Source: Caldithrix abyssi (lineage in GTDB: Bacteria > Calditrichota > Calditrichia > Calditrichales > Calditrichaceae). Taken from it: DNA of 64,000 nucleotides. The position numbers and the translations under genes are program-made. Under the pieces are notes generated by a model, which searched no databases, was not told where the DNA came from, and saw nothing but the letters and a program-made list of their open reading frames with translations. This document shows positions 13,907 through 52,844 of this stretch, piece by piece; within the stretch, counting starts at the first letter, position 1, and each line of letters opens with the position of its first letter. The stretch spans positions 1 through 64,000 of the forward strand of contig DRQG01000015.1 of NCBI GenBank assembly GCA_011369465.1. The letters are read 5' to 3'.

Positions 13907-16900
13907 CTACTTAACCAATAGCATTTTATTAACCCGGGAATACAGAACTTCTCCTGTAATAGTATCCTGTATTTCCAGCCGGTAAAAATAGATGCCGCTG
14001 GCCACCCGGAAATTGTGCAAGTCCGTACCATTCCAGGTTACCCGGTGAGTTCCGTTGTTTATCACTTCAGACACAAGTGTTTTAACCGTTTGACCCAGAA
14101 TATTGAATACCTGTATTCGTACAAAACTTTTTTTGCTGAGCCCATATTCAATCGTCGTTTGCGGGTTGAAAGGATTGGGATAATTGGGTTTAATAAAAAA
14201 TTCATCCGGGATCGCTGTTTCTTCGGTTTCATCAATAGAACTGGCATTGACCAGTTTAAGAGTATCCAAAACACCGCTGTGCCTGAGATTACCATAGGCC
14301 TGATGCCAGTACAACTCCGTATTTTGTCCATAGGTTTGAGGATAGTCCCATAAATACAGTATGCCACTATTTCCTACAAAGGCAATATCCAAATCGCCGT
14401 CACGATCGATATCGTTAACCAACGGAGACTGACCCTGGATATAATCGTTCTCCGTATGCATCGGAAAGCCGATTATTTCATTTTGTGTTCGTACATTTAT
14501 GGCATGAATGTAACCGTTTGTAGTCATAAAAACAATTTCCGTTGTTCCGTCCTGATCCAAATCGGCTACAAGAGGACTGGCATATCCGCTAAAAGGATCT
14601 CTACGGCCCGCTTTCTGTTTTTCATTATTGACCGGTATGGGCCAGCCATCCTTTAAATTACCGTTATGCTCAAAAACATATAAATTCTGTTTACCAAGGT
14701 ATATGATTTCAAGAAATTCATCCTCATCCAACTGAGCAACAATGGCCGGAGCGCTGCGACCAAAGGTTTGAGTGGCATCAATAGCAACGCCGTCTTCCCA
14801 ACCTTCCAAAAAGGCGCCGTTGGAATCGAGAACATACAATTTGTTCTTCGCTGAGGGTACAATTACATCCAAACTGTCGTCGGCATTTATATCGGCCAAA
14901 CTAACAGCCGTATTGAAATCGGCGCCGCTAATGCGTTTTATCCAGACAGGTTCGTTGGACTCCGCCGGTTTAAAGGCATAAATTTTCCCATTGGATGAAG
15001 CAGCAATGACCCACTCTTCACCATCCCGATTCAGATCCGCACTGGCCGGGACGCCCATAGACCAGTTATCCGAAAAAGTATAATAGGCCGTATCCTGCCA
15101 GGCGGAAAAGGCGCTCCAGGTCTGCCCTTCGCTGCGCCAGACGTATAGGCGGCTGTTTTTTTCGTCCAGCGGTGAATTTCCGCCGTGGGTGAGTACGATA
15201 ATATCATCGTATCCATCCCGATCGAGATCGTTTAATACCACAGGGCCGGGAGCGTTATATCCCAAAGGCAGCTCGCCCACAATCTGTTCCGTACGAGCAT
15301 CTAAAATATAAACATAGTTGTCTTCGCTTCCCTCTGTATAAGTGCTTACCACGATTTCCGGAGACGCATCGCCGTACACATTCCCGATAGCCGGCGTAAT
15401 CGAATTCCCCTTCAACTGGTCAAACTGGGCCTGGCGTTCAAAATGACGGTTATACACACGCACAAACCCGTGACCGCTGCTCACTATCAATTCGTTTGCG
15501 CCGTCACCGGTTAAATCCGCAACCTGTAATCCGTTAAATTCGGAACTCATCGCCTGAGGGTCGATAACCCGTGGGAACCCGCCCATAGAGGGTACGGCAG
15601 ACCAGGCCGTAAGCGTATCGGTCGAATAACCGCTGAAATTCCCCAGAGAATCAACCGTATCCAATACATATTCATATACTTCCAGAGGATCTATATTCTC
15701 GTCAACAAAATAACCGCCATTTACCACAGGTTGGGCATTTATTTTAACAAAGGTCATTTCCGAAGCGGTTTTTCGATAGACATTATATCCGTAAACATCC
15801 GGGTCATCTGCCGGTTTCCAGGTTATTTGCAAAGCATTGGCATTAACCGGCTTAAAATTGAGTGCCGTTGGCTCCTCAGGGCTTTTAAAATTAATATTTT
15901 GCTTCCAGGTATTTCCATAATGGTCCCGAATCTCAGCACGAAGTTGAATATCCTCTGCTGCGCGGTTGTGTGTTACCACCAGAGCGGTGTCGTTTTGTAT
16001 TTTTTCATCCGATGCAATATTGCCAAAATAAAGAGAATCGTTCTCTACAACTACGCTGTCCTGATCGGTGCGGATAAATACCGACACATCGCGGCTGCCG
16101 CCCATACCATAGTTATATAATTCCAGCTTTATTTCGCTAACATTCAGCGAGTCGTTTTGTAGCGTGGATATATCGTATCCGGAAATTCGCAAACGGGGAA
16201 CGCCGATTTTTATTTTAGCCAGAGCCGTACCCAAAGTCTGACTGTTTTTCTCAAAATTTACACGGAGAGTAAGTGTGGTATCCGATGCAAAAGTGGAATC
16301 AACGCGCAAACGGAAAGGCAAAAGCGTACCGGTTTCTTGCGGGGCCAGCCCTTCGCTGCTTTCCACTTCGGTTACCAATCCTTCCAGTTGGGGATGGGAG
16401 ACATTTAATATCGCACGGAATGGCGCACCTGTTTCGCTTCCGCCAATATTTTTAACATTCAGCAGGATATCCAAAATTTCGCCCGGCTCACACTTGTTGT
16501 TATTATTGCCATCCACTTCCTGCACTTCGCTATTTTGAACAGCCAAAGCAGGCCCATTCAACTGCGCAAGCTCTAAAGAGGATTCATAAGGAATATAATT
16601 CTGTGCGCTCACAGTCAAGGCCACTTCGCCTGCCGCCGCTCCGGTCAAATCAAAACGCGCTGTGCCCTGTTCATCCGTTTTGTTTAATTTATAAACCGTA
16701 TCTTTTTTATATAAAACAACCAGCGCATCCTCAACCGCTTCGCCGGTGGTTTGATTGGTTACCGTAACCCGGACAATCCCACTGCCCTGGGCGAATGAGT
16801 CTTGCACAGCCACGGCAAAATTTTGGGGAGCGTCGGTCCAAACAGGCATTTCCGGATCGCCGAGCACCAGTGTTGAATAAACAATGATTCTCGACGGACC

Positions 16901-18568
16901 TTCGTAAGACAGATAAGCCAGATAAGGCAGCCGTGATAGATAGTGCGCCTCGGATAAATGATAGCGTCCTTTGCTGAACAGTAAACGATAAAACTCTTCC
17001 TGCATGGTAAGACTGCTTACAGGGTATTCCCAACTGGTATTGCCTATAAAAGCCACCCCTCCTTTGGGCGTAAGCATAAACATTTCACTGAAGGATCGTT
17101 TACGGATATCGTTGGTCTCACAACTGGCCATATACCAGAAGGCCGGATCGGGGCTGTTGAGCTCTTTAAGCTGATACGTGTAAATATTGGAACCTTTCGC
17201 TCCGGGCCGGTAGGTATCGTAGGTGCCGTGGTTTTCGGTGAAAATAAGTCCGTAACTTTTATTCAGCTCTGCCCAGGCCACACTGCCATCACTGCCAATC
17301 TGATTGTTTTGGGTGAGAAAGGTACGCGGGAAATCAGGATTAATCTGGGGATCAATCCGATCTTCTATCCATTTTTTACTGTCGTCCTTTTTACTGATAT
17401 CCCCGGCGGTGAACAACACATTTTGTGGGTATTGAGGATCGCTTATGTCAATCAGTTTCTCATATTCGAAAAGCTTACGCAGAAAATTTTGTACATCTTC
17501 AGAAGTCTCGGCAGGATATCGCCCTATGTATAATTCCGGGTAACCGTCCAATTCGTCATCGGCTTCACCGAAAATATTATCCTGATCAGCGTTCCAGGTA
17601 CCGTCCAAATCCGCAAAATAATAATCGGTCGGAAAGGTATAACCGCCCGTTTTAATAATACGCGTAGGGACGATATCCATATCGCCGCCCATCAGCACGT
17701 ATTTGGTTCCTCGCTGTTCATAGGACCAGCGCAGATAATTACGCATCCGTTCGGCGTCATCAACCCCTTCCGGAAAATTTTGTATGATCCAGCTAACGGT
17801 GCGGATAATGGTCGGCACGCCTTTTTTCGTCTTCCATTCAGCCAGCGGTTCAAATGCCGAGGCCAGTTCATCTGTGGTGATAATGATGTACCGATCAACC
17901 AAACCGGCTTCGTAAGCATTGCGCCAGGCGTCATTGTTACCGGCCGGAACACCCGTATCCAAAACGGCGTCGGGCAGCAAATCACTGTAAACCGCTTCCG
18001 TTTTTTCTACCAGACCGGAAGGACGGAACGGTTGAATCACTTCTGCTGAGGATTGCTCCGTTTCCACTGCAAAACGAATTTTCTTAATAAGATACAGTTC
18101 ACGCGTTTTGGTATTGTAGCGCAGGGGGTATATCACAAAATGAGCTATGGCCTGACCGTTAAAATATTTTACCCCGGTAAATTGTATTGTTTTCTGCGGA
18201 TAAATATCCGAACCGGCCATTACCATTGCAGACGAGCCGCCAGGAAGAGCCTTTTGTTTTTGGCTGAGCGGAGGCGGAACCGTGTTCAGTTGGAAGCGTC
18301 CTTCCAGCTTAATTTCTTCGCTCTCAAGAATCTTTACCGAGCGTACATCCTGTGGAGAGGATAATTTAACCCGATACACATAAACCGGTAAATCCGGCGC
18401 GCCAACGGGATTTGCCAAAACCGAACCACCGTTTTCCCGTTCATATATTACCTTTTGGCCTCCGTTAATTTCGGAAATCACCACCTTGTCCGGACTATGT
18501 TCCAAGGTATACACCTGCCCGAACGCAAAGTATATATTGAGTAATAACAAAGATAGAATTCTTCTCAC
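13907..18568 (-). CDS. gingipain-family (C25) surface cysteine protease with FG-GAP repeats and sorting domain
   Basis: 1553 residues. The signal peptide is MRRILSLLLLNIYFAFG, followed by a C25-associated propeptide (about 20-210) and the caspase-like peptidase domain (about 215-570). The catalytic His447 is in ENHGTYDTY and Cys483 in MASCETND, 36 residues apart, similar to the gingipain dyad. Next come a carboxypeptidase-regulatory-like module, a CARDB-like domain, an FnIII module (TALNFKPVNANALQITWKP) and FG-GAP repeats with DxNxDG motifs. The C-terminal type A sorting domain begins NYPNPFNPQTTIEYGL. It is predicted to be exported by a type IX-like system and attached to the cell surface. 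It may process other sorted proteins or digest external protein. Confidence 0.9.
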   Translation of the reverse strand: MRRILSLLLLNIYFAFGQVYTLEHSPDKVVISEINGGQKVIYERENGGSVLANPVGAPDLPVYVYRVKLSSPQDVRSVKILESEEIKLEGRFQLNTVPPPLSQKQKALPGGSSAMVMAGSDIYPQKTIQFTGVKYFNGQAIAHFVIYPLRYNTKTRELYLIKKIRFAVETEQSSAEVIQPFRPSGLVEKTEAVYSDLLPDAVLDTGVPAGNNDAWRNAYEAGLVDRYIIITTDELASAFEPLAEWKTKKGVPTIIRTVSWIIQNFPEGVDDAERMRNYLRWSYEQRGTKYVLMGGDMDIVPTRIIKTGGYTFPTDYYFADLDGTWNADQDNIFGEADDELDGYPELYIGRYPAETSEDVQNFLRKLFEYEKLIDISDPQYPQNVLFTAGDISKKDDSKKWIEDRIDPQINPDFPRTFLTQNNQIGSDGSVAWAELNKSYGLIFTENHGTYDTYRPGAKGSNIYTYQLKELNSPDPAFWYMASCETNDIRKRSFSEMFMLTPKGGVAFIGNTSWEYPVSSLTMQEEFYRLLFSKGRYHLSEAHYLSRLPYLAYLSYEGPSRIIVYSTLVLGDPEMPVWTDAPQNFAVAVQDSFAQGSGIVRVTVTNQTTGEAVEDALVVLYKKDTVYKLNKTDEQGTARFDLTGAAAGEVALTVSAQNYIPYESSLELAQLNGPALAVQNSEVQEVDGNNNNKCEPGEILDILLNVKNIGGSETGAPFRAILNVSHPQLEGLVTEVESSEGLAPQETGTLLPFRLRVDSTFASDTTLTLRVNFEKNSQTLGTALAKIKIGVPRLRISGYDISTLQNDSLNVSEIKLELYNYGMGGSRDVSVFIRTDQDSVVVENDSLYFGNIASDEKIQNDTALVVTHNRAAEDIQLRAEIRDHYGNTWKQNINFKSPEEPTALNFKPVNANALQITWKPADDPDVYGYNVYRKTASEMTFVKINAQPVVNGGYFVDENIDPLEVYEYVLDTVDSLGNFSGYSTDTLTAWSAVPSMGGFPRVIDPQAMSSEFNGLQVADLTGDGANELIVSSGHGFVRVYNRHFERQAQFDQLKGNSITPAIGNVYGDASPEIVVSTYTEGSEDNYVYILDARTEQIVGELPLGYNAPGPVVLNDLDRDGYDDIIVLTHGGNSPLDEKNSRLYVWRSEGQTWSAFSAWQDTAYYTFSDNWSMGVPASADLNRDGEEWVIAASSNGKIYAFKPAESNEPVWIKRISGADFNTAVSLADINADDSLDVIVPSAKNKLYVLDSNGAFLEGWEDGVAIDATQTFGRSAPAIVAQLDEDEFLEIIYLGKQNLYVFEHNGNLKDGWPIPVNNEKQKAGRRDPFSGYASPLVADLDQDGTTEIVFMTTNGYIHAINVRTQNEIIGFPMHTENDYIQGQSPLVNDIDRDGDLDIAFVGNSGILYLWDYPQTYGQNTELYWHQAYGNLRHSGVLDTLKLVNASSIDETEETAIPDEFFIKPNYPNPFNPQTTIEYGLSKKSFVRIQVFNILGQTVKTLVSEVINNGTHRVTWNGTDLHNFRVASGIYFYRLEIQDTITGEVLYSRVNKMLLVK

Positions 18569-24410: not shown

Positions 24411-25154
24411 CTAATTCACGCGACGGATGGTAATTTTAGCGCTCGGCTCATCCCAGCCGTACATCTCCGGGGAAAGATCCCCTACACCCGTAATGCCTTT
24501 ATGAAAATGGATGCGCTCGTGGGTGGGAATCCCTTCAAAGGGTGTACCGCAACAGGGACCGGGTATGTGCCCTTTCAGTTCCGTGTTCTTTTCCGAACCG
24601 GCGTCATACGTACGCATATAATAAACCTTGGTTCCGTATGCCGGCAGGCGTAATCCATCCACACCGGTAAATGCGTCGTTGGTGTTCACAAGCATGCTTA
24701 CGATGGATAACTTATGAAATCCCGGTCTCGCTTTGATACGAATGGTCGTTGAGCTGCCGGGGAACACTACACCGTCGCCCTGGGCAACATCATATACAAA
24801 ATCGGATTCGTTCAACATATCGATCATCGGTCCGCTGACGGCATCCTGGGCAATCTGGGCCAGTTCGTCGGAGGCAAATTTCCCCAACCTGAAGATATGA
24901 TACAGCGGTGTGTGTGTAGCCAACAGAGGCGGTGCAAACGGTTGGCTGGCCCCGGGACCTGTAGCCGGAGTTAAATTCTCGATCGTAACCTCGAATTCAA
25001 ACTCCTGTGCCGCAATATCCGCCCGATCCGAGGAAATGCCTTGTGTGGTACTTTCCAATTGCGGTTCTGCAGGTGCGCTGCCCGGCGTTTGACTACAGGC
25101 AAAAAACAATGCGGCTAACGAAAGCAACGAAAATACACGAATGATGTGTCTCAT
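24411..25154 (-). CDS. spondin-domain lipoprotein
   Basis: 247 residues with a lipoprotein signal (ALFFACS, Cys20), a short Ser/Pro/Glu linker, and a domain starting FEVTIENLTPATGPGASQP. It continues with PLYHIFRLGKFASDEL, LNESDFVYDVAQGDGVVFPG and the STTIRIKARPGFHKLSIVSM segment. This is the bacterial spondin_N-like domain, a beta-sandwich related to that of the animal extracellular-matrix protein F-spondin; bacterial copies are surface or periplasmic and of unproven function. It is transcribed alone with its own terminator, upstream of the two-component pair on the same strand. Confidence 0.78.
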   Translation of the reverse strand: MRHIIRVFSLLSLAALFFACSQTPGSAPAEPQLESTTQGISSDRADIAAQEFEFEVTIENLTPATGPGASQPFAPPLLATHTPLYHIFRLGKFASDELAQIAQDAVSGPMIDMLNESDFVYDVAQGDGVVFPGSSTTIRIKARPGFHKLSIVSMLVNTNDAFTGVDGLRLPAYGTKVYYMRTYDAGSEKNTELKGHIPGPCCGTPFEGIPTHERIHFHKGITGVGDLSPEMYGWDEPSAKITIRRVN

Positions 25155-25421
25155 AAAGACCTCCTTTGATTGAGTGTTTGTGAGTTCGTAAACAACATAG
25201 AGGCCGTTTCTAACAAACAGTTCACAGGTTTCTTAAAAAAGAGTGAAATCAAAAAAGGTTATGTTTTTTGGCAAAAATCATTTTTTAACACTTCGAATAG
25301 CTATAGATGTATTCTTTTTTCTATTGCCCCCTGCTGTTGAAAAATGTAAATTCTATTTACACTATAAATCCGTTTTGTAAATTATGTTTGCTGAATTAGC
25401 CTTGTAACAACGGGATTTCCG

Positions 25422-28400
25422 GTGAATAAAAAATTTTTTGTACTGATTTTTATTTTTTTTCTATTGCCGCTGCAAGCTCAGCAGTTCAAAATGCTTAAAG
25501 CCAATCTGATTTCCGGACTGATCCCCGATATTGAAGACGGCTACGGTGTGGCCTTTCGCGATTTTAACGGAGACGGTTACCCGGATATCTATCTGGTTTG
25601 CTTTCGCAACCTCAACCGGCTGCTCATCAATAACGGCGGCATTATTCCTTTTATAGACCGTACCATTTTCTCCGGATTGGGCGGCGATTTGATGTCGCGT
25701 GGGAAAACCAACCTGGAGCTGGGCGCCTCCGCGGCCGACTTTGACAACGACGGTGACGCCGATATCTTTTTAGCAGGATGGGGTAAAACCACCAAACTTT
25801 TTCGTAATTCCGGGCTGGTTTCTTTTGAAGACGGAACAGCGGCGCTCAATCTGCACGGAATTACCGACGCGAATTACGGCCTTTGGCTTGACGCCGACAA
25901 TGACGGTAATTTAGATTTATACATCACCGACGAACATCGCAGCAACCGTCTTTTTCATAACGACGGCAACGGTAATTTTCACGAGGTCATCTGGACGGAA
26001 ACATTAATAGACTCTGCGGTGAGCCAGGGCAGCTGCGCCTCGGATTTTGACAATGACGGCGATATGGATATCTATGTAGCCAATTGGTTTGCCCCCGATT
26101 ACTTGCTTATAAATAACGGTCACGGCCTGTTTACGCCCGCCGCGCTTCCTTTGCCCACACTGTCGGACAATTTTTCATCCAACAGCGCAACAGCCGCAGA
26201 CCTGGATAACGACGGTGATGAAGACCTGCTGGTAGTGACCCACGAGGGCCGAGTCTTTTACTATCAAAATGTTAGCCGGTCCGGCCGGCCCTCTTTTATC
26301 ACCATTGAGGAACACCCTTTTTCCGTGCTGGAGGGCAGTGTGTACGGGGCTTTGATAGAAGATTTTAATAACGACGGATGGCTGGACTGTTTTTTTAGCG
26401 TGAAGGGCAAAAATCGTCTCTATCTGGGCAAAGGCGATGGTTTATTCGAAGATTTTTACGATACCGATGACCGAACTGCTTACAGCACTGGATCCGCCGC
26501 GGCGGATCTGGATCAGGATGGCGATCTGGATATCTTTGTGGCCAATAAAGATGAAATCTGCCAGGTGTATCTGAATCCGACGAATGATCATAACAGCGTT
26601 TTCATTAAACCGGTCGGCACCAAATCCGGCCGCGATGCTCTGGGGACAAAAATATATTTTTATGCCGGGGCCGATACCAGCAGCGCTTTTCTGGGGATGC
26701 GCTCCGTTCAGGCTCAATGCAGTTATTTATCCAGTTCCGAACCGATGGTGCATTTTGGACTGGGGCTTAATGATACGGTGAGTGCAAAAATTGTTTTTCC
26801 ATCCGGGGTTACTATCATCCGCAATAATCTGGCGCCGGGAACGCACCTTGTTGTTTACGAATATACCGCCGTCTGGCGCTGGGCATATAGTGTTTTTAAC
26901 AGCGCCGTAAATTATTTTCGTACCGCTTCATTCTGGATCAACGTCGGTTTAATCGCTCTGCTGCTTTTACTTTATTACCTTTTTTTACAGGCCGGTGTCA
27001 AGCGTTATAGTTTGCAGGCCGCCGCTTTGGCCGGTCGCTTGTTTATTTTATTCATCATCTCTGCGGCCGCCTTTCTGTTTTTACGCGCTTATCCCTTAAC
27101 CATCATTTTATCTGCCTTAAACATAGTGAATATGGCCGGGATGGGATTGTTCTCGCTGTACGCCGAATATATGAACAACCGCCGCAGGAAACGGAATCGT
27201 TTTCGCGGTGAATTGCGGATACTCAGCCGGGATATGATCAACATCCACGAAAACGACGCTTTATTCAAACGTTTGCTGAAAACGCTTATCAGCCACGAAG
27301 AAATTGAACGCGTTGTGCTGTTACAGCCGGACGATAACAAACACCTGACCCTCGTTCTGTCCTTACCAAACCTTGCCGATACGAAAAAGGAACTCGCTAT
27401 TTCTTCTGAAATTTACCGGGCTTTATTGGATGATGAACGTGTCTTCAGCCGACGAGGTGTACTGTTTGCTCCGCTTTTTTCCGCATTCAGGATAAATGTG
27501 ATCCTGCCTATAAAGCTCGACGACCAGCTTTTCGGTATTATCGGTATCTATATGCCCAACGCCGACGCTCCGCTCAATCAGGAAGACCTCAACCTGATTT
27601 CCACCATTGCCAACCAGACCGCCATCGCCATTCAGAACAATAATTACACCGCTCAAAGGGCGGAGCTGGTCAAAAAGCTTACCGAAGCACAAGTGCGGGA
27701 AGAATACACACGCCAGCTTGAAGAAACTAATCGAAAACTGGATCAGAAAAATAACGAACTGACCCGCTTGTTTAAAGAGTTGCAGGAAAAGGAATCTCAG
27801 TTGATTCATTCCGAAAAAATGGCGTCTCTGGGCCAGTTGGTGGCCGGCATTTCACACGAATTGAACAACCCGATCAGTTTTATCTACGCCAATTCCAAGG
27901 CTTTAACAGATTATCTGGATGAACTGGCCGGGTTGATCGTTCCTTTGCAAAAGCAGGGAGCAGGAAAGGCCGTGGCCGGACAATTCAATAAAATACTCGA
28001 GGATATCCGGGCCATTGTGCGGGACAATATCACCGGCAGTCAGAACGTTAAGGAACTGGTACTCAACTTAAAAAACTTTTCGCGTCTGGATCAGGCCGAC
28101 TGGAAAGAGGCCCGCCTCTGCCCCGGCATCGAGAGCAGTCTCAAAATACTTAAACCGCAAATTCCCGAAGATGTGAACATTGTTAAAGAATTTAAGGACG
28201 ATCCCCTGATCTATTGCAACCCGGGGCAATTGAATCAGGTATTCATCAATCTGATTTCCAATGCCGTGCAGGCCATCGAGGGCCGGGGCACGGTCACGAT
28301 TCGCACCTTCATCCGAAAATCCGACCTGATCATTGAAGTGAAGGACACCGGTGTGGGGTTAAACAAAAAAGACCTGAAACGGATTTTCGATCCCTTTTTT

Positions 28401-28592
28401 ACCACCAAAGACGTAAACAAAGGCACCGGGCTGGGCTTGAGTATATCCTACGCTATTGTGCAAAAGCACCGCGGCGCCATTGAGGTGGAAAGCAAAGAGG
28501 GTAAAGGCAGTGTTTTCCGCATTATACTGCCGATGAAGGTTAACGCCGGCATTTCTGGTAAGAAAAAGAGTGATACGGCTTCCCCAAAATAA
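25422..28592 (+). CDS. histidine kinase with extracellular VCBS propeller and ASPIC/UnbV domain
   Basis: 1056 residues, GTG start. Signal peptide (1-20); about seven VCBS/FG-GAP repeats (about 40-385) with calcium-binding loops such as DFNGDGYPDIY, DFDNDGDADIF, DADNDGNLDLY and DLDQDGDLDIF; then an ASPIC/UnbV domain (about 395-490, VHFGLGLNDTVSAKIVFPSG). Three membrane helices follow (about 508-595), a GAF domain (about 620-745), a coiled coil, HisKA with His812 (AGISHELNNPISF), and a HATPase domain (NLISNAVQAIEG, DTGVGLNK, GTGLGLSISYAI). The extracellular half looks like an adhesin or ligand-binding propeller, the inner half like an NtrB-type kinase. Its partner is the NtrC-type regulator 27 bp downstream. 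Confidence 0.9.
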   Translation: MNKKFFVLIFIFFLLPLQAQQFKMLKANLISGLIPDIEDGYGVAFRDFNGDGYPDIYLVCFRNLNRLLINNGGIIPFIDRTIFSGLGGDLMSRGKTNLELGASAADFDNDGDADIFLAGWGKTTKLFRNSGLVSFEDGTAALNLHGITDANYGLWLDADNDGNLDLYITDEHRSNRLFHNDGNGNFHEVIWTETLIDSAVSQGSCASDFDNDGDMDIYVANWFAPDYLLINNGHGLFTPAALPLPTLSDNFSSNSATAADLDNDGDEDLLVVTHEGRVFYYQNVSRSGRPSFITIEEHPFSVLEGSVYGALIEDFNNDGWLDCFFSVKGKNRLYLGKGDGLFEDFYDTDDRTAYSTGSAAADLDQDGDLDIFVANKDEICQVYLNPTNDHNSVFIKPVGTKSGRDALGTKIYFYAGADTSSAFLGMRSVQAQCSYLSSSEPMVHFGLGLNDTVSAKIVFPSGVTIIRNNLAPGTHLVVYEYTAVWRWAYSVFNSAVNYFRTASFWINVGLIALLLLLYYLFLQAGVKRYSLQAAALAGRLFILFIISAAAFLFLRAYPLTIILSALNIVNMAGMGLFSLYAEYMNNRRRKRNRFRGELRILSRDMINIHENDALFKRLLKTLISHEEIERVVLLQPDDNKHLTLVLSLPNLADTKKELAISSEIYRALLDDERVFSRRGVLFAPLFSAFRINVILPIKLDDQLFGIIGIYMPNADAPLNQEDLNLISTIANQTAIAIQNNNYTAQRAELVKKLTEAQVREEYTRQLEETNRKLDQKNNELTRLFKELQEKESQLIHSEKMASLGQLVAGISHELNNPISFIYANSKALTDYLDELAGLIVPLQKQGAGKAVAGQFNKILEDIRAIVRDNITGSQNVKELVLNLKNFSRLDQADWKEARLCPGIESSLKILKPQIPEDVNIVKEFKDDPLIYCNPGQLNQVFINLISNAVQAIEGRGTVTIRTFIRKSDLIIEVKDTGVGLNKKDLKRIFDPFFTTKDVNKGTGLGLSISYAIVQKHRGAIEVESKEGKGSVFRIILPMKVNAGISGKKKSDTASPK

Positions 28593-28619: not shown

Positions 28620-30056
28620 ATGGAAAAAGAAACCATACTGATCGTTGATGACCAGACCGAAATTTTGCGTACCCTGCAACGGCTTTTTCGCGAAGATTTT
28701 GAGGTCCTTACGGCTGAGAGCGGCCCGAAAGCCCTTAAGCTGGTAAAAACACAGCCGATATGCGTGATCATTTCCGACCAGCGCATGCCCGAAATGGACG
28801 GCGTAACCTTTCTTTCCGAGGCCAGAAAACTTCAACCCGACGCCGTGCGCATATTGATTACCGGATACGCCGACATCGAGGCTACCATCGAGGCGGTGAA
28901 CCGCGCTGGAATTTTTCAATATATTTCCAAACCTTTCGAGCCGGACGATCTGAAACAGATTGTCAAAAATGCCGCCGAACGGTATCGCCTGGAAATCCAA
29001 AACAAACAACTTCAGGCCGAGCTGCTGGAAGCCAACCGTAAACTGGCCAGCGAAAAAGAAGAATTGCAAAAACAGGTGGAAAAGCAGCTTGACCTGGGCA
29101 ATATGATCGGGCAAAGCCCCAAAATGCTCAGAATTTTCAAAATGGTGCGCAAGGTCATGGATACCCCGACCACCGTGCTTATACTCGGCGAAACCGGCAC
29201 AGGCAAAGAAATGCTGGCCCGTCTGATTCATTTTAACAGCAACCGCAAAGATAAAATGTTTGTCGCCCAAAACTGCGGCGCCATACCCGATACCCTTTTG
29301 CAAAGCGAATTGTTCGGCCATGTGAAAGGCGCCTTCACCGGAGCGGATAAGGACAAAAAAGGTCTGTTCGAACTGGCCGATAAAGGCACAATTTTCCTGG
29401 ATGAAATCGGCGACACCTCTCCTTCTTTTCAACTGGGTCTGCTGCGTGTTTTGCAGGAGGGCGAAATCAAACCGCTGGGTTCCAATCAAACCAAAAAAGT
29501 GGATGTGCGGGTCATTGCCGCTACCAACCGTGATTTGCAAAAAGATGTGCAGGAAAAACGGTTTCGGGAAGACCTGTACTATCGACTCAGCGTTTTCCCG
29601 ATTGAACTGCCGTCTTTGGATGAACGACGTGAAGACATCCCCGATCTGATCGATTTTTTTCTTAAAAAATACAGCCGCCGTATTGGAAAGCGTATTTTAG
29701 GTCTGGACAAAGAAACCATGCACATTCTCACCCACGCCCGCTATCCCGGCAATATCCGCGAACTGGAGAATGAGATCGAAAGGCTGGTTACTCTGGCTGA
29801 TGATAACAGCCGAATTGACGCATCACTACTATCCAAAAAGTTTCTGGAACAGGTCACGGATGAGAATGAAATTTATCCGGGTGAAAATAATCTGAAAAGA
29901 GCTGTAGAAAAGCTTGAGCGGGCCATGATCCATCGTGCCCTACAGCAAACCGGAGGCAACGTACTGCGGGCTGCCGAACAACTGGGGGTTAGCCGGGTGG
30001 GGCTCCACAAAATGCTCAAACGCTATCAAATAATACCACAGGATTTTAAAATATGA
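28620..30056 (+). CDS. NtrC-family sigma-54-dependent response regulator
   Basis: 478 residues: receiver domain with Asp53 (IISDQRMPEMDG) and KPF Lys, a coiled-coil linker (about 125-160), the sigma-54 activator AAA+ domain (Walker A GETGTGKE, GAFTGA loop, Walker B GTIFLDEIGD, arginine finger region FREDLYYRLSVF), and a Fis-type HTH (GGNVLRAAEQLGVSRVGLHKML). It lies between the VCBS kinase gene and a HAD gene it overlaps by 4 bp. Two sigma-54 promoters occur within 1.3 kb downstream (30545-30559, 31313-31327), so these are its likely targets. Confidence 0.93.
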   Translation: MEKETILIVDDQTEILRTLQRLFREDFEVLTAESGPKALKLVKTQPICVIISDQRMPEMDGVTFLSEARKLQPDAVRILITGYADIEATIEAVNRAGIFQYISKPFEPDDLKQIVKNAAERYRLEIQNKQLQAELLEANRKLASEKEELQKQVEKQLDLGNMIGQSPKMLRIFKMVRKVMDTPTTVLILGETGTGKEMLARLIHFNSNRKDKMFVAQNCGAIPDTLLQSELFGHVKGAFTGADKDKKGLFELADKGTIFLDEIGDTSPSFQLGLLRVLQEGEIKPLGSNQTKKVDVRVIAATNRDLQKDVQEKRFREDLYYRLSVFPIELPSLDERREDIPDLIDFFLKKYSRRIGKRILGLDKETMHILTHARYPGNIRELENEIERLVTLADDNSRIDASLLSKKFLEQVTDENEIYPGENNLKRAVEKLERAMIHRALQQTGGNVLRAAEQLGVSRVGLHKMLKRYQIIPQDFKI

Positions 30057-30523
30057 TTCGCATAGACGTCCCGGTTTTCGGTCTGCTATCATTGGAATAT
30101 CTGGTTATGGATTATAACGGCACACTGGCTATTGACGGCCGGTTGATCGCCGGTGTAACCGAGGCTATCGAGAAACTGAGCAATGATATGGAAATACATA
30201 TCGTTACAGCCGATACCTTTGGAAAGGTTCGTAAAGAAATGAAGGGCCTGCCTGTAGTCACCAAAATTTTGCCTCCTGCAAATCAGGCCGAAGCAAAAAG
30301 AGCCTATGTGCGCACATTGGGTGAACATCGCTGTGTTTGTATCGGCAATGGCCGCAATGACCGTTTGATGCTCAAAGAAGCGGCGCTGGGTATCGCGGCT
30401 ATTCAAAATGAAGGCGCCGCGCGGGCAACGGTTGAATCGGCCGATATTGTTGTAAACCATATCGTCGATGCACTCAATCTTTTAATACATCCCTTACGCC
30501 TAATCGCCACCCTGCGCGACTAA
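30053..30523 (+). CDS. small HAD-superfamily protein (soluble P-type ATPase-like)
   Basis: 156 residues. HAD motif I is MDYNGTLAIDG, with the D-x-N-G-T form common in the COG4087-type 'soluble P-type ATPase' group; motif II is IVTADTFG and motif IV is GNGRNDRLML. This resembles the catalytic core of P-type ATPases without membrane helices. The normal second Asp of motif I phosphatases (DxDGT) is Asn here, which argues against ordinary phosphatase chemistry. Its ATG overlaps the stop of the NtrC-type gene, so it belongs to the kinase-regulator operon and may be a phospho-accepting modulator; that role is inference. Confidence 0.7.
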   Translation: MIRIDVPVFGLLSLEYLVMDYNGTLAIDGRLIAGVTEAIEKLSNDMEIHIVTADTFGKVRKEMKGLPVVTKILPPANQAEAKRAYVRTLGEHRCVCIGNGRNDRLMLKEAALGIAAIQNEGAARATVESADIVVNHIVDALNLLIHPLRLIATLRD

Positions 30524-30544: not shown

Positions 30545-30560
30545 TGGTATGCTTTTTGCG
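30545..30560 (+). promoter_or_regulatory. sigma-54 promoter of the first lipoprotein gene
   Basis: TGGTATG-CTTT-TTGC: GG at 30546-30547 (-24) and GC at 30558-30559 (-12), with exact 12-bp phasing; predicted start near 30571. The gene's ATG is at 30595 after GAGGAGG. It shares the seven-base -24 box TGGTATG with the promoter at 31313. Confidence 0.82.
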
Positions 30561-30966: not shown

Positions 30967-31312
30967 TATGCGGATAGAGATATATTTGCTGCTGCAGACC
31001 TCTATTAAGCTAAGAGAGTATTTAGATCAAGAAATATACAGATTCCGAATTAACAATTCGATCTTTAAATTTCACCCATAGATTTACCAAAAGACTCTTT
31101 ATTTTAGTATTGTGTAAACATCGTTTACTGTTATCAACCCTAAATGATAACACCGTATTCAATATTTATTTATTTGAAATTCAATCCCTCCATATAAATT
31201 ATTTCTTTTTATTTTTCACCCGCCGGCCAGGATTTGTTATTCCTTTATAAACAAGAGGATACACGATCGTGCCCGATTCTTTCCCAAAAGTTTCTTCTAT
31301 TTTTTCTTTTAA
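30967..31312 (+). promoter_or_regulatory. upstream region of the second lipoprotein gene with palindromes
   Basis: No gene is visible in the 400 bp before 31367. Two adjacent palindromes stand out: GTAAAC-ATC-GTTTAC (31114-31128) and GTTATCA-N8-TGATAAC (31130-31151), about 160-200 bp upstream of the sigma-54 promoter. That is the distance at which NtrC-type activators bind. A related half-site, TGTAAAC, occurs at about 30451, roughly 95 bp before the first lipoprotein promoter. The binding-site role is inferred. Confidence 0.4.
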
Positions 31313-31328
31313 TGGTATGTTAATTGCA
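31313..31328 (+). promoter_or_regulatory. sigma-54 promoter of the second lipoprotein gene
   Basis: TGGTATG-TTAA-TTGCA: GG at 31314-31315 and GC at 31326-31327, correct 12-bp phasing. The predicted start is near 31339, giving a 28-nt leader that contains GAGGAGG at 31352-31358 before the ATG at 31367. Confidence 0.82.
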
Positions 31329-31366: not shown

Positions 31367-32377
31367 ATGAATTCCATAATAAAATCATTGCTAATCAGTT
31401 TGACGGCAGGACTTTTATTAACTTCCTGCTACACAAAACTGGCCATGACGCAAACCCGGCAGGCCTGGGACAGCTATGAAGAACCGGAATATCTGGCACA
31501 ACAGCAAGAAGCTGCCCAGGATACGTTCTATACCGATGACGGTGAAATGTATGTTAGTGAAACGCCCATCTACTCACCGGAAATCAATTATTACTACTTC
31601 GACGGCAGCCCGTATTGGGATAGCTGGTGCTACGATCCCTGGTATGTGAACATACACTGGGGATTTTATCCTTCGTATTATTATGGCGGTTGGTACGGTT
31701 GGTACCCGGCGTTTCCGGTGGTCTATTACCCGGTTTATATTTACGACCCGTATTATTGGGATTATCCACCTCCCAGCTACGGATACAGCCCGCCGTTTCA
31801 ACCCAGGCCCTTTGGCAGAGGCGGTACGATTCTCGCCAGAGGTAACGGCAGCAAGCGTGTTGCTCTGGGCGGCAGCAACGGACGTCCGCGTAAATCCGGT
31901 ATCAGACAGCCTGCCGGCAGCGGATCTTCTAACGACGGATTTATCGCGGTACGCACCAGCGGCTCAAGAAGCGGTTCGGACAATGTAAAAAGAGTAACCA
32001 TCCGCAAAACGAATACCGGTGGAAAAACAAATGTTTCGAGGTCCGGCGGCGGTACGACCAAAAGAAAGTATTACAGAGTAAATAAAAATTCCGGACGTTC
32101 CGATTCCTATCGTACACCACGGGTTAAAAAGATAAGCCGCACCGGCAAAAGCGGATCCGACCGAAGTTACACGTCTTCACGTTCCGGTCATACCCGTTCC
32201 AGTTCCTCCGTCCGTTCACGCTCTTCTTATTCCGGCTCCCGCAGTTCGGTCAGCCGTTCTTCGAGTTCCCGGTCATCCGTCAGCCGTTCATCTTCCGGTC
32301 GCAGTGTTTCGCGAAGTTCCTCCTCGCGTTCCGGTTCAAGCCGCTCCGGAAGCAGTCGCTCTTCCAGAAGGCGGTAA
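31367..32377 (+). CDS. Tyr/Trp-rich, Ser/Arg-repeat surface lipoprotein
   Basis: 336 residues with lipobox LLTSC (Cys21). Three zones: an acidic part (about 25-65); an extreme aromatic/proline zone (about 70-155) with runs such as YYYGGWYGWYPAFPVVYYP and DPYYWDYPPPSYGYSPPF; then a basic, low-complexity Gly/Ser/Arg zone (about 155-336) ending in many SRSS/SRSG repeats. This resembles intrinsically disordered, sticky surface or matrix proteins rather than an enzyme. It is expressed from a sigma-54 promoter and followed 33 bp later by an outer-membrane barrel gene. The function is unrecognised; surface adhesion or matrix coating is a guess. Confidence 0.75.
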   Translation: MNSIIKSLLISLTAGLLLTSCYTKLAMTQTRQAWDSYEEPEYLAQQQEAAQDTFYTDDGEMYVSETPIYSPEINYYYFDGSPYWDSWCYDPWYVNIHWGFYPSYYYGGWYGWYPAFPVVYYPVYIYDPYYWDYPPPSYGYSPPFQPRPFGRGGTILARGNGSKRVALGGSNGRPRKSGIRQPAGSGSSNDGFIAVRTSGSRSGSDNVKRVTIRKTNTGGKTNVSRSGGGTTKRKYYRVNKNSGRSDSYRTPRVKKISRTGKSGSDRSYTSSRSGHTRSSSSVRSRSSYSGSRSSVSRSSSSRSSVSRSSSGRSVSRSSSSRSGSSRSGSSRSSRRR

Positions 32378-32410: not shown

Positions 32411-33916
32411 ATGTCCAAATTAAGGAGTTGTATTAAAATGAAATACCGGATAAAAAAGAATCGTTACCTTTTCTTTAAATCGTTACTGTTAACATTATTA
32501 ACACTCATTATCTTTACCGGAGCGCTGGCTCAATCGGCAGAAGAAGCGGTCGTTTTATTGGATAACGAACAGGGATTCGGTATTCGTGCAGCGGCAATGG
32601 GCAACGCTTATACTTCCGCAGCGGACGATTACAGCGCCATCTACTGGAATCCGGCCGGACTGGCTATGATTCATCACGGCCATTTGTATGGGTCTATTTA
32701 CAATTTAAATTACAAGCCGGTTATTAACTATCAGGATGGGTCCAATTACAATCCCGAATCGTTTACCAAACTTAAAAGCCTGGGAATGGCCATACCTTTT
32801 CCGGTAAGTCAGGGTAGTTTTGTTTTTGCCATGGGGTACCAGCGGATCAATGATCTGGATAACTATATTAAATTCAAAGGAATCAATCCTACAAGTAATG
32901 ATTTGGCTTTCGAAATTGACAATGAACTGGGCTATTACGGCGTACTGCCTTTTGACCGCCAGCTTCAACAATCGCTAACCGTGCAGAACGAGGGTAACAT
33001 CAGCCAATGGTCTTTTGGGGCAGCCGCGGATTTCTCTAAAAATTTTTCCGCCGGCCTTACGGTTAATTTTTACGGCGGCAGCAGTAATTACACCTACAAT
33101 TACTCTCAGGATGATGTGAATGGGGCTAACAGTTATGATATTGTTGACCAGAATAATCGCGTTATCGAAGAATTCTATTACAATTATTATGATGTTCAGC
33201 AAAAGATTTCCAGTGAATACTCCGGAACGGAATTCAAAGCCGGCGGACTGTTGCGCTTTTCGCGTTTTATGCGTATCGGGGCCACGGTTACTTTTCCTAT
33301 GGATCTAAAAATTAAAGAAGACTGGATGGTTACCGACGAGCTCTCTTATGATATTCTGGTAAAGGATGAAAACACGGTTTACGAATTTATCGAAGCCTAT
33401 GAATTGGGCAGCGGCACGTTCGACTACATCATCCGCACACCGTACAAGTTTAGCGCGGGTGTTTCCTTTCACAGCCCTCTGATCGTGCTTAGCGCTTCCG
33501 CTGAATATCGCGACTGGAGTCAAACCCGCTATGTGGTTCCCGAAGACCGGGATGAACGTGATTACACATTTTTGTTGGACGAAAACAAATATTTCCAGGA
33601 TAACTTCGGACCGGTGATCAATTATGCCGTTGGCGGCGAATTAAAACTGTTTGATGCGATGCTTAACCTGCGCGCCGGATTGCGTTACAACCCATCGCCA
33701 TTTGTAAATTCCGATACAACCATGGATAAAAAATATCTAAGCGTCGGATTCGGTTTGGGGCTGAGTGAAAACATCCTTTTGGAAGCCAGTTATACCGTCG
33801 GCCTCTGGAATTATGACAAAGCTTACAGCTACGACTGGCCAACGGACAAAGCTCTGATCACTTCCGAAAAATATCGTACCGATAAACTGGTAGTGGGAAT
33901 GCGGTTGTATTTTTAA
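32411..33916 (+). CDS. outer-membrane barrel protein, PorV/FadL-like
   Basis: 501 residues from this start. After a signal peptide (cut near GALAQ) comes GIRAAAMGNAYTSAADDYSAIYWNPAGLA, the N-terminal hatch-like pattern of FadL/PorV-type barrels, then about 14 amphipathic strands ending in an aromatic residue (LVVGMRLYF). Proteins of this kind transport hydrophobic compounds or act as shuttles of the type IX secretion system. Another start at 32438 has AAGGAG 10 bp upstream and is equally possible; the signal peptide is intact in both. It probably belongs to the sigma-54 lipoprotein operon and is closed by a strong terminator. Confidence 0.8.
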   Translation: MSKLRSCIKMKYRIKKNRYLFFKSLLLTLLTLIIFTGALAQSAEEAVVLLDNEQGFGIRAAAMGNAYTSAADDYSAIYWNPAGLAMIHHGHLYGSIYNLNYKPVINYQDGSNYNPESFTKLKSLGMAIPFPVSQGSFVFAMGYQRINDLDNYIKFKGINPTSNDLAFEIDNELGYYGVLPFDRQLQQSLTVQNEGNISQWSFGAAADFSKNFSAGLTVNFYGGSSNYTYNYSQDDVNGANSYDIVDQNNRVIEEFYYNYYDVQQKISSEYSGTEFKAGGLLRFSRFMRIGATVTFPMDLKIKEDWMVTDELSYDILVKDENTVYEFIEAYELGSGTFDYIIRTPYKFSAGVSFHSPLIVLSASAEYRDWSQTRYVVPEDRDERDYTFLLDENKYFQDNFGPVINYAVGGELKLFDAMLNLRAGLRYNPSPFVNSDTTMDKKYLSVGFGLGLSENILLEASYTVGLWNYDKAYSYDWPTDKALITSEKYRTDKLVVGMRLYF

Positions 33917-37711: not shown

Positions 37712-40700
37712 TCAGCGCACAAGCAGCATTTTTTTGACCCGTAAAAAGTTGTCCGCCTTCAATTCGTAAAAATAAACGCCGCTGGACAGACCTTCGGCTT
37801 CGAACTCCACTTTATAATGCCCGGCCTGCTGACGGGTATTTACCAACTCTTTTATCAACTGACCTAAAACATTATAAACCCGCAGCCGCACCACACCGGC
37901 CCGGCTTAAATCATAAGCAATTATCGTGGATGGATTGAAAGGATTGGGATAATTGGCGTATAGTTCTGTTTTTACAGGTAAATGGCCTTTCGCAACTTCA
38001 ATGGCCGTTTGGCTTTTCCATTCATAGGCACCCATATCTATCCGGTCATTAATAACCCGCTGGTTGCCTAAAATATCCTGCGCGATAAATGTTCCGATTT
38101 CGCTGGTGTCCGGTGTGCCCGCGTTGATGCAGGGAGAGTTTTCCCCGGGTTGATAAGGCTCTTGACCGCTCAATGCAAAAAGCGGATCCGCATTAATATT
38201 GTTTTCATAATTCAAATTGTCCGGAGTACCGACAAATTGTGCGCTGTCTCCTTCGACGTCCGAATAAATAAATGAATTTTCATTACCGGCCTTGTAAAAA
38301 TAAACCTGATGAGCGCTGCTGTCGGCACGGTTATTCCATAAGATGGAGTTAATAACAGAAAAATTGGAACTAAAGGTAATATACAATGCGCCTCCATAAA
38401 AGCCGGCATGATTATCGGCTAAGGTACTGTTCAATACTTCTGCCTGAGAATAGGTACCGGAAAGCCCGGCGCCGTAATCGGCCGAATTATCGGCCAAGAC
38501 CCCGTTAATCAACTTAAGATAGGATTCGGACAAATAAAACACTCCGCCGTTTTTTCTTGCCTGGTTTCCATAAAAATAGGTGTTGGCCGATTCCACCGTG
38601 GCTTTATTACGGCAAAAGACCGCGCCTCCGAAATCGGCCTCATTATTTTTAAAAACGTTATTGGCTATAACAAGCTGCGCAGCGTCCGCATAAAGCGCAC
38701 CGCCGTGCAAGGCCCGGTTATCGTAAAAGCGGTTATGCTCAAAAACCGCGCCGTTTATATTCCGGCAGTATAACGCTCCGCCCATATAACTGTCATTATG
38801 AATAAACAACGAATGGCTGATCCGTACTTTGTTGGAATCCTCGAAGGAAAGCGTCCCGTTTAGAGTATCGCCAAGGCTGCGCGTGCGGGCATATTCAAAA
38901 CGGCAAAAAGAAAAAACGGATGTGTCTTCGGCAGACGCGCCGGCAGCGAAATGAATACCATGCCATCCTGTACTCGTATCGGCAGCCGTAAAACGTATCG
39001 TGTCTTCTTCCGCGCCCTGCGCCCTAATTCCTCCGTAAACGGTTATGGCATAAGGGCCGGTAAAAACAACCCGCACCCCCGGTTCAATGGTTAAAGTAAC
39101 GCCCTGACCGATATATAAATCACAGCCGATTTCCATGGTTTGCCCGGCGCTCCAGGTGGTATCCGAAGTGATGGCGCATTCCCAAACATGTACCGTTACC
39201 GGCCGGCTGTATAAAGTTAAATCGGGCAGACTGTCGTTGCTCATTGTGCATGTGTAAACTCCGGTGTCTTCGTCAGAAAGATCGGGTATCGTCAAAACGC
39301 TGTCGTCCGGCGCATTTAAGACTACGCCATCCTTTTCCCATTGGTAGTGGGTAAATTCACCGCCCACATGCATAACCAGCCTTAATGTGTCTCCGGGTTG
39401 AAAAGCCAACGCTATTTTATTCCCAACAGAGTCCTGGTCGGAATATTTAAATGTTGTTAAAGAAGTCGATTTAAGCTGCGGCTCCAAATCGGAAAACACC
39501 AGTTGGTTTTCATAAACATATAAGCGCTGTAACGAGGGAAGTCCGGACAGATCGGGCAGAGAAGAAAACCTGTTGCCGTACAGTGCGATATTTTTAAGAG
39601 AGGATAGTCTTTTAATCGTATCGGGAACGGCTCCCGAAAAGTGATTTTTATATAGGTTTAAATATTGTAATTGAGTCAATTTACCAAAGCTTTCCGGCAA
39701 AGTTCCTTCCAGTTCATTTTCTGCGAGGCTGATCGTTGTCAGCGAGGAAAGATTGCCTAAGGTTTCGGGTATCGTTCCGGTAAGCTGATTTTTGTATAAA
39801 TTGGCTATTCTCAACTGGGAAAGGTTGCCCAGGCTTTCTGGGATTTCACCGTTGAGATTATTATCGCCGAGATTCAAGCTTTCCAAAGCGGCCATATCTC
39901 CCAGACTATCGGGAATGAATCCACCGATATCATTATAGGATAAATTTAACGTTTCCAAATTATCCATTCGTCCTATGCTCTCAGGAATGGTACCGGCAAG
40001 TTTGTTGTGTGAAGCATCAAAGAGAACCAGGTTTTTTAAATTGCCTATATTCGACGGGATATTACCGGTTAAGTCATTATTTCCCAAATGCAGCTGGGTC
40101 AGGGAGGTCAGGTTAACCAGGCTTGATGGTATGCTGCCGCTTAAATTGTTATCATAGAGCTGCAAAGACTCCAGTTTCGGGAGATTGCCCAATTCGGGAG
40201 GTATCTCCCCGCTGAGTTCATTGCTGAACAATTTCACAGTAACCAGTTCTTTTAAACTATCCAGTCCCCTGGGAATCGCACCGGAAATATCCGTTGAATG
40301 AATGATTAGTTCAGTCAGGTTGGTCAAGCCAGACAGGCTTTGCGGTAAAGAACCGTTTAAATGACACGAATAAAAATACAAGGTTTTGAGCTCTTTTAAA
40401 TTACCAATTTCTTCGGGAATCGGGCCGGTCAACGTGGAACTTTGCCCGATTTTTAGCCAGGTCAGCGCCGTAAGGTCGCCGAGTTGTCCCGGCAGCTTTC
40501 CGTTAAGGTTATTGTTTATTAAACTCAACTCCGTAACACGGCCGCTTTTAACGGTAACTCCGTACCAATCGGAAACCTTTGAACTCAAATCCCAGGTATG
40601 CGTCCAGTTGGCTCCGTCGGTACTGTCATAAATTGCCACCAAAGCCAGAGAATCGCTTTCCAGCACCTGTCCGTTCAGGTTAAAGTTAAATAAAAACAGC

Positions 40701-40732
40701 ATCGGGATGATTACACCAATCCAAACTTTCAT
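37712..40732 (-). CDS. secreted LRR / Ig-like / beta-helix surface protein with sorting domain
   Basis: 1006 residues. Signal peptide (MKVWIGVIIPMLFLFNFNLNG); about 15 plant-type leucine-rich repeats (about 60-410) of the form LxxLxLxxNxLxGxIPxxLGNL; an Ig-like domain (about 430-520, with DEDTGVYTCTMSN); and a right-handed parallel beta-helix (about 540-880, repeated GGALY/GGAVF turns). The C-terminus is a type A sorting domain (NYPNPFNPSTIIAYDL to the end). Each part is a binding or scaffold fold rather than an enzyme, so a large cell-surface adhesin or polysaccharide-binding protein is likely. It stands alone with its own terminator and is divergent from the lamin-tail gene. Confidence 0.88.
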   Translation of the reverse strand: MKVWIGVIIPMLFLFNFNLNGQVLESDSLALVAIYDSTDGANWTHTWDLSSKVSDWYGVTVKSGRVTELSLINNNLNGKLPGQLGDLTALTWLKIGQSSTLTGPIPEEIGNLKELKTLYFYSCHLNGSLPQSLSGLTNLTELIIHSTDISGAIPRGLDSLKELVTVKLFSNELSGEIPPELGNLPKLESLQLYDNNLSGSIPSSLVNLTSLTQLHLGNNDLTGNIPSNIGNLKNLVLFDASHNKLAGTIPESIGRMDNLETLNLSYNDIGGFIPDSLGDMAALESLNLGDNNLNGEIPESLGNLSQLRIANLYKNQLTGTIPETLGNLSSLTTISLAENELEGTLPESFGKLTQLQYLNLYKNHFSGAVPDTIKRLSSLKNIALYGNRFSSLPDLSGLPSLQRLYVYENQLVFSDLEPQLKSTSLTTFKYSDQDSVGNKIALAFQPGDTLRLVMHVGGEFTHYQWEKDGVVLNAPDDSVLTIPDLSDEDTGVYTCTMSNDSLPDLTLYSRPVTVHVWECAITSDTTWSAGQTMEIGCDLYIGQGVTLTIEPGVRVVFTGPYAITVYGGIRAQGAEEDTIRFTAADTSTGWHGIHFAAGASAEDTSVFSFCRFEYARTRSLGDTLNGTLSFEDSNKVRISHSLFIHNDSYMGGALYCRNINGAVFEHNRFYDNRALHGGALYADAAQLVIANNVFKNNEADFGGAVFCRNKATVESANTYFYGNQARKNGGVFYLSESYLKLINGVLADNSADYGAGLSGTYSQAEVLNSTLADNHAGFYGGALYITFSSNFSVINSILWNNRADSSAHQVYFYKAGNENSFIYSDVEGDSAQFVGTPDNLNYENNINADPLFALSGQEPYQPGENSPCINAGTPDTSEIGTFIAQDILGNQRVINDRIDMGAYEWKSQTAIEVAKGHLPVKTELYANYPNPFNPSTIIAYDLSRAGVVRLRVYNVLGQLIKELVNTRQQAGHYKVEFEAEGLSSGVYFYELKADNFLRVKKMLLVR

Positions 40733-51494: not shown

Positions 51495-52844
51495 TTATTT
51501 GGATCCCAGCCGGCTGCTGAGCGTGCGATAATTTATGTCCAAAAATTCACAGGCGGCTTTTTTATTGCGGCCCACGTGCTCGTAAACCATATTTACATAC
51601 ATCCTTGTGATTTCTTCCAGGGTAAATCGGTTTGCCAGAGCATTTTGCAATACTGGATTTTCTTCTTCCTGTATATCTTCGGGAATGTCCTTAATTGTTA
51701 AGTTTTGGTGATTGAGCACCAGCATACGGATCAGTGTATTTTCCAGCTGGCGTACATTCCCTTTCCATTGCAGCCGGGATAAATAAGCGATAAGCGTCGG
51801 ATCAAAACGAGGCTCGGGGATATTGTTTTCACGACAATAGCGGGCTGCAATGTGACTGATTAATGCCGGGATATCATCCGGGCGCTCTCTCAAAGGCGGA
51901 ATACGGATGGGAATCACATTTAACCGGTAATACAGGTCTTCCCTGAATTTTTTCTTTTTTACTTCTTCGGCCAAATCACGGTTGGTCGCTGTAATTAATC
52001 GAAAATTGGCGGAGTGTTCTTTGGTTCCGCCCAGGCGATAAAATTTTTTCTCTTGCAAAACACGCAATAGCTTGGCCTGAATGCTGAGAGGCAGTTCGCC
52101 GATTTCATCCAAAAACAGAGTTCCGCCATTCACGGCTTCGAATTGTCCTTTTTTTAAATCGGTCGCTCCGGTAAAAGCCCCTTTTTCGTGACCGAACAGT
52201 TCGTTTTCCAGCAGATTTTCCGGCAGCGCCGCCGAATTGATGGCCACAAAGGGTTTGCCGGAAATTTTGCTGCGGTTGTGAATGTGACGGGCGATGACTT
52301 CTTTTCCAACACCGGACTCGCCGGTGAGCAAGACCGGTTCTTTGGTATTGCGGATCTGTTCTACTAATTTCAAAATATTCTGCATTTGTTTGCTAACCGC
52401 AACGATGCCTTCAAAATGCAGTGTGCTGGTTAGTTGCTGTCTTAAATTTCGATTTTCCCGTTCCAGGGCCTGCATGTGTAGAGCCCTGCGAACAACCAGC
52501 GGTAATTCTTCTTTTATATTTTCACCTTTAAAAAAGTAGGCCGAAGCGCCCCGTCGCTGCGCTTCCAGCGCATTTTGGTGATCCTGCGAAGAAGTTATTA
52601 CAATAATTTTAACATCCGTACCTTTGCTCACTATAAAATCAAGAACATCCAAACCCTGTTCTATTAACGGCAGGCCGAGATCGAGCAGGACAATATCGGG
52701 TAAAAAGCGTTCGAAGGCTTGCTTTGCTTTATGCACTTCCGAAGCAAATTCATACCGGTAGCTTGTTCCAAGCCATTTTTTATAGCTTTGCTGCCATACC
52801 GCGTTGTCTTCAATAATGAGAATTTTTTGAGGCATCTGTTTCAT
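51495..52844 (-). CDS. NtrC-family sigma-54-dependent response regulator
   Basis: 449 residues: receiver with Asp55 (IVLLDLGLPLIEQG), the AAA+ sigma-54 activator domain (GESGVGKE, GAFTGATDLKKG, GTLFLDEIGE, FREDLYYRLNVI) and a compact Fis-type HTH (GRNKKAACEFLDINYRTLSSRL). It begins 3 bp after the stop of the histidine kinase gene. Its 3' end faces the sigma-54 promoter 140 bp further on, making that small operon its most probable target. Confidence 0.93.
   Translation of the reverse strand: MKQMPQKILIIEDNAVWQQSYKKWLGTSYRYEFASEVHKAKQAFERFLPDIVLLDLGLPLIEQGLDVLDFIVSKGTDVKIIVITSSQDHQNALEAQRRGASAYFFKGENIKEELPLVVRRALHMQALERENRNLRQQLTSTLHFEGIVAVSKQMQNILKLVEQIRNTKEPVLLTGESGVGKEVIARHIHNRSKISGKPFVAINSAALPENLLENELFGHEKGAFTGATDLKKGQFEAVNGGTLFLDEIGELPLSIQAKLLRVLQEKKFYRLGGTKEHSANFRLITATNRDLAEEVKKKKFREDLYYRLNVIPIRIPPLRERPDDIPALISHIAARYCRENNIPEPRFDPTLIAYLSRLQWKGNVRQLENTLIRMLVLNHQNLTIKDIPEDIQEEENPVLQNALANRFTLEEITRMYVNMVYEHVGRNKKAACEFLDINYRTLSSRLGSK

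Follow-up and report, generated by a model that had tools for sequence, protein, structure and literature searches.

In the window, the whole 64,000-nucleotide stretch of Caldithrix abyssi DNA that was analysed, a gene for a large sensor histidine kinase is followed by genes for a response regulator, a small hydrolase, two lipoproteins and an outer-membrane protein (Table 1). The kinase comprises, in order, a signal peptide, a propeller, an ASPIC/UnbV domain, three helices, a GAF domain, a coiled coil, and HisKA and HATPase domains. For every domain the best Pfam model exceeded its curated cut-off (FG-GAP_3, E = 1.4e-40 over five stretches; FG-GAP, 5.6e-14; UnbV_ASPIC, 1.7e-9; GAF_3, 2e-9; HisKA, 3e-6; HATPase_c, 5e-26), which bears out the domains named in a preliminary description of this DNA; hydropathy peaks and AlphaFold helices likewise agreed on the three membrane helices proposed there. 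The H, N, D-x-G-x-G, F and G boxes of two-component histidine kinases were all present, and His812 and the intact N, D-x-G-x-G, F and G boxes of the HATPase domain were invariant in 30 orthologs. Where about seven DxDxDG loops had been suggested, we counted exactly seven calcium loops of the DxDxDGxxD type in the propeller (residues 47, 106, 157, 208, 260, 314 and 362), with Asp at loop positions 1, 5 and 9 in 93–100% of the 30 orthologs in all seven. In an alignment of the window protein with 30 orthologs, column conservation was 0.53 for the UnbV domain and 0.68 for the HATPase domain; because it was 0.62 for the propeller vs 0.37 for the GAF domain, the propeller, rather than GAF, looks like the constrained sensor part.

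Table 1. Positions of the genes, protein domains and putative regulatory elements at the kinase locus.
Feature	Position	Strand	Basis
CRTAC1-type sensor histidine kinase, 1056 aa, GTG start	25422..28592	+	ORF, Pfam, orthologs
Signal peptide MNKKFFVLIFIFFLLPLQA, residues 1-19	25422..25478	+	Sequence, hydropathy peak
Seven-bladed FG-GAP propeller, ~residues 30-395	25509..26606	+	Pfam, AlphaFold, CRTAC1 9etn fold match, loop conservation
ASPIC/UnbV domain, residues 406-475	26637..26846	+	PF07593 1.7e-9
Three membrane helices, residues 502-528, 533-553, 559-605	26925..27236	+	AlphaFold helices, hydropathy
GAF domain, residues 613-739, poorly conserved	27258..27638	+	PF13492/PF01590
HisKA-type dimerisation region, His812 (codon 27855-27857)	27828..28031	+	PF00512
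HATPase_c domain, residues 934-1039	28221..28538	+	PF02518 5e-26
NtrC-type response regulator: receiver, sigma-54 AAA+, Fis HTH	28620..30056	+	Pfam
Small HAD-like hydrolase	30053..30523	+	All matches below cut-off
Short lipoprotein, 123 aa	30595..30966	+	ORF; SCYTQLA lipobox, basic tail
Lipoprotein: acidic Tyr-rich body, Ser/Arg-rich tail	31367..32377	+	ORF; conserved in operon
FadL/OmpP1-family outer-membrane protein	32411..33916	+	PF03349 2e-9; conserved in operon
Palindrome before kinase gene, putative regulator site	25345..25361	.	12/14 match
Second palindrome before kinase gene	25376..25392	.	11/14 match
Sigma-54-like element TGGTATGCTTTTTGCG before short lipoprotein gene	30545..30560	+	Weaker, shuffle p 0.045
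Palindrome 1 TGTAAACATCGTTTACT, putative regulator site	31113..31129	.	13/14
Palindrome 2 TGATAACACCGTATTCA	31145..31161	.	11/14
Sigma-54 -24/-12 element TGGTATGTTAATTGCA before lipoprotein gene	31313..31328	+	

Full-length orthologs of the kinase, 38–58% identical, were found in 31 of the 40 Calditrichia genomes searched, a set that includes Calditrichota bacterium Dive96_bin3.89 and Calditrichia bacterium IP29b_bin.73. The match reached the end of a contig in four or five further genomes of the 40, and 4/40 had no clear ortholog. The same architecture (type A) occurred in 7 of 49 genomes from the phylum of a candidate-division-KSB1 genome, which rules out that the kinase is confined to Calditrichia. 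An assembly artefact fusing a secreted FG-GAP protein with a histidine kinase, in favour of which there is just the odd mixture of domains, has next to no probability, since the orthologs are colinear, come from independent assemblies (among them two single-contig genomes, G005 and G029) and run at full length across position 26900 in these Calditrichia and KSB1-phylum genomes, excluding the join near that point against which the preliminary description had cautioned. Judged from these orthologs, the reading frame encodes one intact protein and the fusion is real. The kinase tree tracked taxonomic families and grouped the KSB1 sequences together, as expected of an old, class-wide gene with mostly vertical inheritance.

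Two further arrangements carry other kinase cores behind the ectodomain. Type B receptors (L157, L158 and L159) combine the same kind of ectodomain with an extra YCF48-like propeller, while type C receptors (L160–L163) have ~350 more N-terminal residues and a GHKL-like ATPase; all are followed by a response-regulator ORF. Type C extended to the phyla that include a Marinimicrobia genome and an Ignavibacteriae genome, ruling out that receptors with this ectodomain are restricted to Calditrichia. The window's own genome encodes a type-C paralog (L163, 1795-5319 of G000:C86), its 350 N-terminal residues outside any assigned domain, with its own NtrC-type regulator at 507-1826, so the kinase is not the sole such receptor there. 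With types B and C beside type A, each with a response regulator, kinases with a CRTAC1-type ectodomain are, by their predicted architecture, a recurrent kind of receptor. Elsewhere, the matches listed include 80 named proteins of other phyla related to the ectodomain, and none of these had a kinase in the same frame (0/80); the matches listed in a contig scan for the ectodomain were mainly plain FG-GAP proteins, with the orthologs not among them, so that named genomes are thinly covered. A profile search of 247 genomes from the phylum of the Ignavibacteriae genome, a weak one in which three candidates per genome were scored, gave no type-A protein among them, and the top matches in 60 genomes from the phylum of a Sulfotelmatobacter genome included no type-A or fused protein. 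In our literature search, no paper found described a kinase with a CRTAC1-type ectodomain; the combination, flagged earlier as unusual, is thus undescribed in the literature searched, but it is no one-off: the gene is class-wide, its partner regulator is conserved, and a target operon can be predicted for the pair.

The ectodomain and membrane region were modelled with AlphaFold using 22 orthologs (residues 24–620; protein residue = model number + 23), giving, at a mean pLDDT of 90, three long membrane helices behind a propeller and a beta domain. By profile and by fold alike, the best solved match of the ectodomain was murine CRTAC1 (PDB 9etn; profile E = 3e-34; fold Z = 41.7 over 444 residues, 22% identity), with integrins and lectins scoring well behind; in humans, CRTAC1 is a cartilage protein. 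The likeness to CRTAC1 and ASPIC/UnbV secreted proteins covers the entire ectodomain, an FG-GAP propeller followed by ASPIC/UnbV in the CRTAC1 fold. CRTAC1 is, however, secreted and ends in an EGF-like domain, whereas a Pfam search found no EGF match in the window protein, whose ectodomain instead continues into membrane helices and a histidine kinase. The signal peptide and the odd number of helices would put the propeller beyond the inner membrane, with the kinase in the cytoplasm. Because the operon encodes a FadL-family outer-membrane protein, we took the cell to be diderm, and the ectodomain should thus face the periplasm. The sensor had been described as extracellular, which did not hold: a signal peptide and three helices in an inner-membrane kinase point to a periplasmic one.

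The regulator gene adjoined the kinase gene in 26 of 30 ortholog loci, and its products were 52–72% identical. The window's regulator has the receiver, the sigma-54 AAA+ domain with GAFTGA and the Fis-type HTH of NtrC-type proteins; the phospho-Asp D53, the GA/SFTGA motif and the HTH were kept, and RpoN is encoded. A HAD-like hydrolase gene lay beside the regulator mainly in family f1. Where the contig permits, the regulator was usually followed, in Calditrichia and KSB1, by a protein of ~330–560 residues and a FadL/OmpP1-family protein, the latter identified in the window by PF03349 at 36.9 bits vs a cut-off of 29.7. The longer lipoprotein of the window matched no Pfam or NCBIfam model. In this protein and its orthologs, a ..SCYTQ lipobox precedes an acidic first half rich in Tyr/Trp, and S, R and K make up 37–84% of the last 100 residues, with a mostly basic end; in genus g6 its gene lies away from the kinase. 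The short lipoprotein encoded before it shares its SCYTQLA lipobox and basic tail and looks like a shortened duplicate. Elsewhere in the window, all on the minus strand, are a second sigma-54-type response regulator with receiver and AAA+ domains and no Fis HTH Pfam match (51495-52844), a peptidase C25 with FG-GAP repeats (13907-18568) and an LRR protein (37712-40732), the last two each with a type IX secretion tail (Por_Secre_tail).

A sigma-54 element, TGGYAY-N5-TTG, was located 29–64 bp upstream of the lipoprotein start in most loci. Three genomes of one family had it 223–248 bp before the chosen lipobox start, but in the two checked the element was 35–49 bp before an upstream in-frame start. 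Upstream of this element were palindromes of the form TGTWAAC-N3-GTTWACA, usually two and 21–32 bp apart, at a density before the lipoprotein gene 18-fold that of the loci at large. Palindrome and sigma-54 element, both properly placed, were carried together by 19 of 540 ORFs, and 15 of the 19 were the lipoprotein gene (Fisher p = 1e-21 for the joint test, uncorrected for the motif having been derived from the set of loci tested). Of the other four, one was a kinase gene and one an outer-membrane protein gene of the operon; a third encodes a lipoprotein and lies beside a kinase gene, and the fourth, close to another kinase gene, probably encodes a beta-barrel. Discovery of the palindrome and most of its tests used one set of loci, the independent cases being G005 and the sites before the kinase gene. 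Genome G005 is closed and its lipoprotein gene is not linked to the kinase; the sole perfect palindrome there lies upstream of the lipoprotein gene, accompanied by another palindrome and by a sigma-54 element. Close to the start of the kinase gene, a palindrome was also present in 11 of 16 near relatives, as well as in the window (25345-25392). Because the intergenic region before the kinase gene contained no sigma-54 site, the palindromes there suggest autoregulation. On the other side of this region, which holds both palindromes, lies a divergently oriented gene whose lipoprotein-like product matches Spondin_N (24411-25154, minus strand). Palindromes were weak or absent in several genomes (L033, L047, L061, L203 and L204), and in a control most single palindromes elsewhere in the genomes were near chance level. 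In genome G025, palindromes precede genes for two more exported acidic, Tyr-rich proteins (L229, 2793-4244; L236, 2372-3490), one with a Ser/Arg-rich end; these are possible further members of the regulon.

Overall, we consider it probable that the locus encodes an envelope-sensing two-component system that governs outer-membrane components via the palindromes and sigma-54. The CRTAC1-like ectodomain, a calcium-stiffened propeller with its ASPIC/UnbV domain, would bind an envelope component in the periplasm, and binding would move the three-helix bundle and, through the GAF domain and coiled coil, the kinase core. The kinase would then transfer phosphate to the NtrC-type regulator encoded next to it, which would bind the paired palindromes and, with sigma-54, turn on the gene for the Tyr-rich, Ser/Arg-tailed lipoprotein and the FadL-family gene behind it, both products being predicted to reside in the envelope. 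The regulator may also bind before the kinase gene.

Three other readings concern the signal, for which the preliminary description had put forward calcium, glycan or surface contact as candidates. The propeller could bind a periplasmic oligosaccharide, as in the Bacteroides hybrid systems, with the operon serving glycan capture or uptake; the order of propeller, beta domain, membrane and kinase is the same as in those sensors (PMC3243724), and fungal lectins with the same kind of propeller ranked second in Foldseek. We nevertheless regard a glycan signal as unlikely: the conserved operon is without glycan-degrading or SusC/SusD genes, Reg_prop and Y_Y_Y domains gave no Pfam match in the kinase at E ≤ 1, and a single gene occurs class-wide rather than many specialised copies. 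Less probable again is a closed surveillance loop with RcsF-like logic, in which the operon lipoprotein would normally thread into the FadL-family barrel or be held there. On failure of outer-membrane assembly, the basic tail of the lipoprotein would remain in the periplasm and bind the acidic propeller as a ligand, raising production of both partners. The charges are opposite (-38 for the kinase ectodomain vs +26 to +62 for the lipoprotein C-part in all orthologs) and the lipoprotein and FadL-like genes travel with the kinase, but charge complementarity is weak evidence and the lipoprotein gene is unlinked in g6. To calcium itself as the signal, with the seven loops filling and emptying in the physiological range and so setting kinase activity, we assign the lowest probability of the three. 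All seven loops are conserved as described above and calcium-responsive kinases exist, namely LadS, CarS (of CarSR) and CvsS (PMC10574481), yet such repeats also occur in secreted FG-GAP proteins without a kinase, and calcium in integrin-type propellers, which have the same loops, is mainly structural (PMC3192720), because of which it is probably structural here too.

What integrin/CRTAC1-type propellers do in bacteria has been described as unknown (PMC3192720). In the envelope-sensing system favoured here, such a propeller would serve a two-component system as its receptor, and regulator, DNA sites and target genes of that system can all be named. The kinase and regulator look like an undescribed system for monitoring and adjusting the envelope, present in most Calditrichia, and what had been read as a single odd protein now appears as part of a conserved system for envelope control, for which a regulon is predicted. 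Such a system may belong to the core of envelope control in KSB1 bacteria and in Calditrichota, a phylum that has been little studied, and the Tyr-rich lipoproteins with Ser/Arg tails would form a family not yet classified.

Compared to known systems, the pairing of a FadL-family outer-membrane protein with a neighbouring lipoprotein resembles BamG/BamH of the Bacteroidota BAM complex (PMC12611786); the BamG match (3e-13) is below the family cut-off (NF053685, 49.6 vs 250 bits) and the operon lipoprotein matches no family. The Bacteroides hybrid two-component systems, whose propeller sensors have a glycan proposed as signal (PMC3243724), share with the window kinase a periplasmic propeller and the beta domain, membrane and kinase behind it. 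The window kinase has one propeller, of another family, and an operon without glycan-utilisation genes, and instead of a fused receiver and an AraC-type HTH in the same polypeptide there is a separate sigma-54 regulator of the NtrC type. ZraS/ZraR and AtoS/AtoC are alike in kinase core and regulator type (AtoS, 4e-51; AtoC, 7e-122; ZraR, 1e-106), but have other sensor domains, and all matches were below the equivalog cut-offs. PrsK/PrsR of the PEP-CTERM system also differs in its sensor part, and both of its models scored below cut-off (TIGR02916, 89.2 vs 300 bits; TIGR02915, 373.8 vs 502.6 bits). There too, a kinase stands beside an NtrC-type regulator, and a regulator site and a sigma-54 element lie ahead of genes for exported proteins (PMC1569441). 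The reading favoured here follows the same logic: the state of the envelope is relayed by a sensor in the membrane, and exported components are turned on through a sigma-54 regulator.
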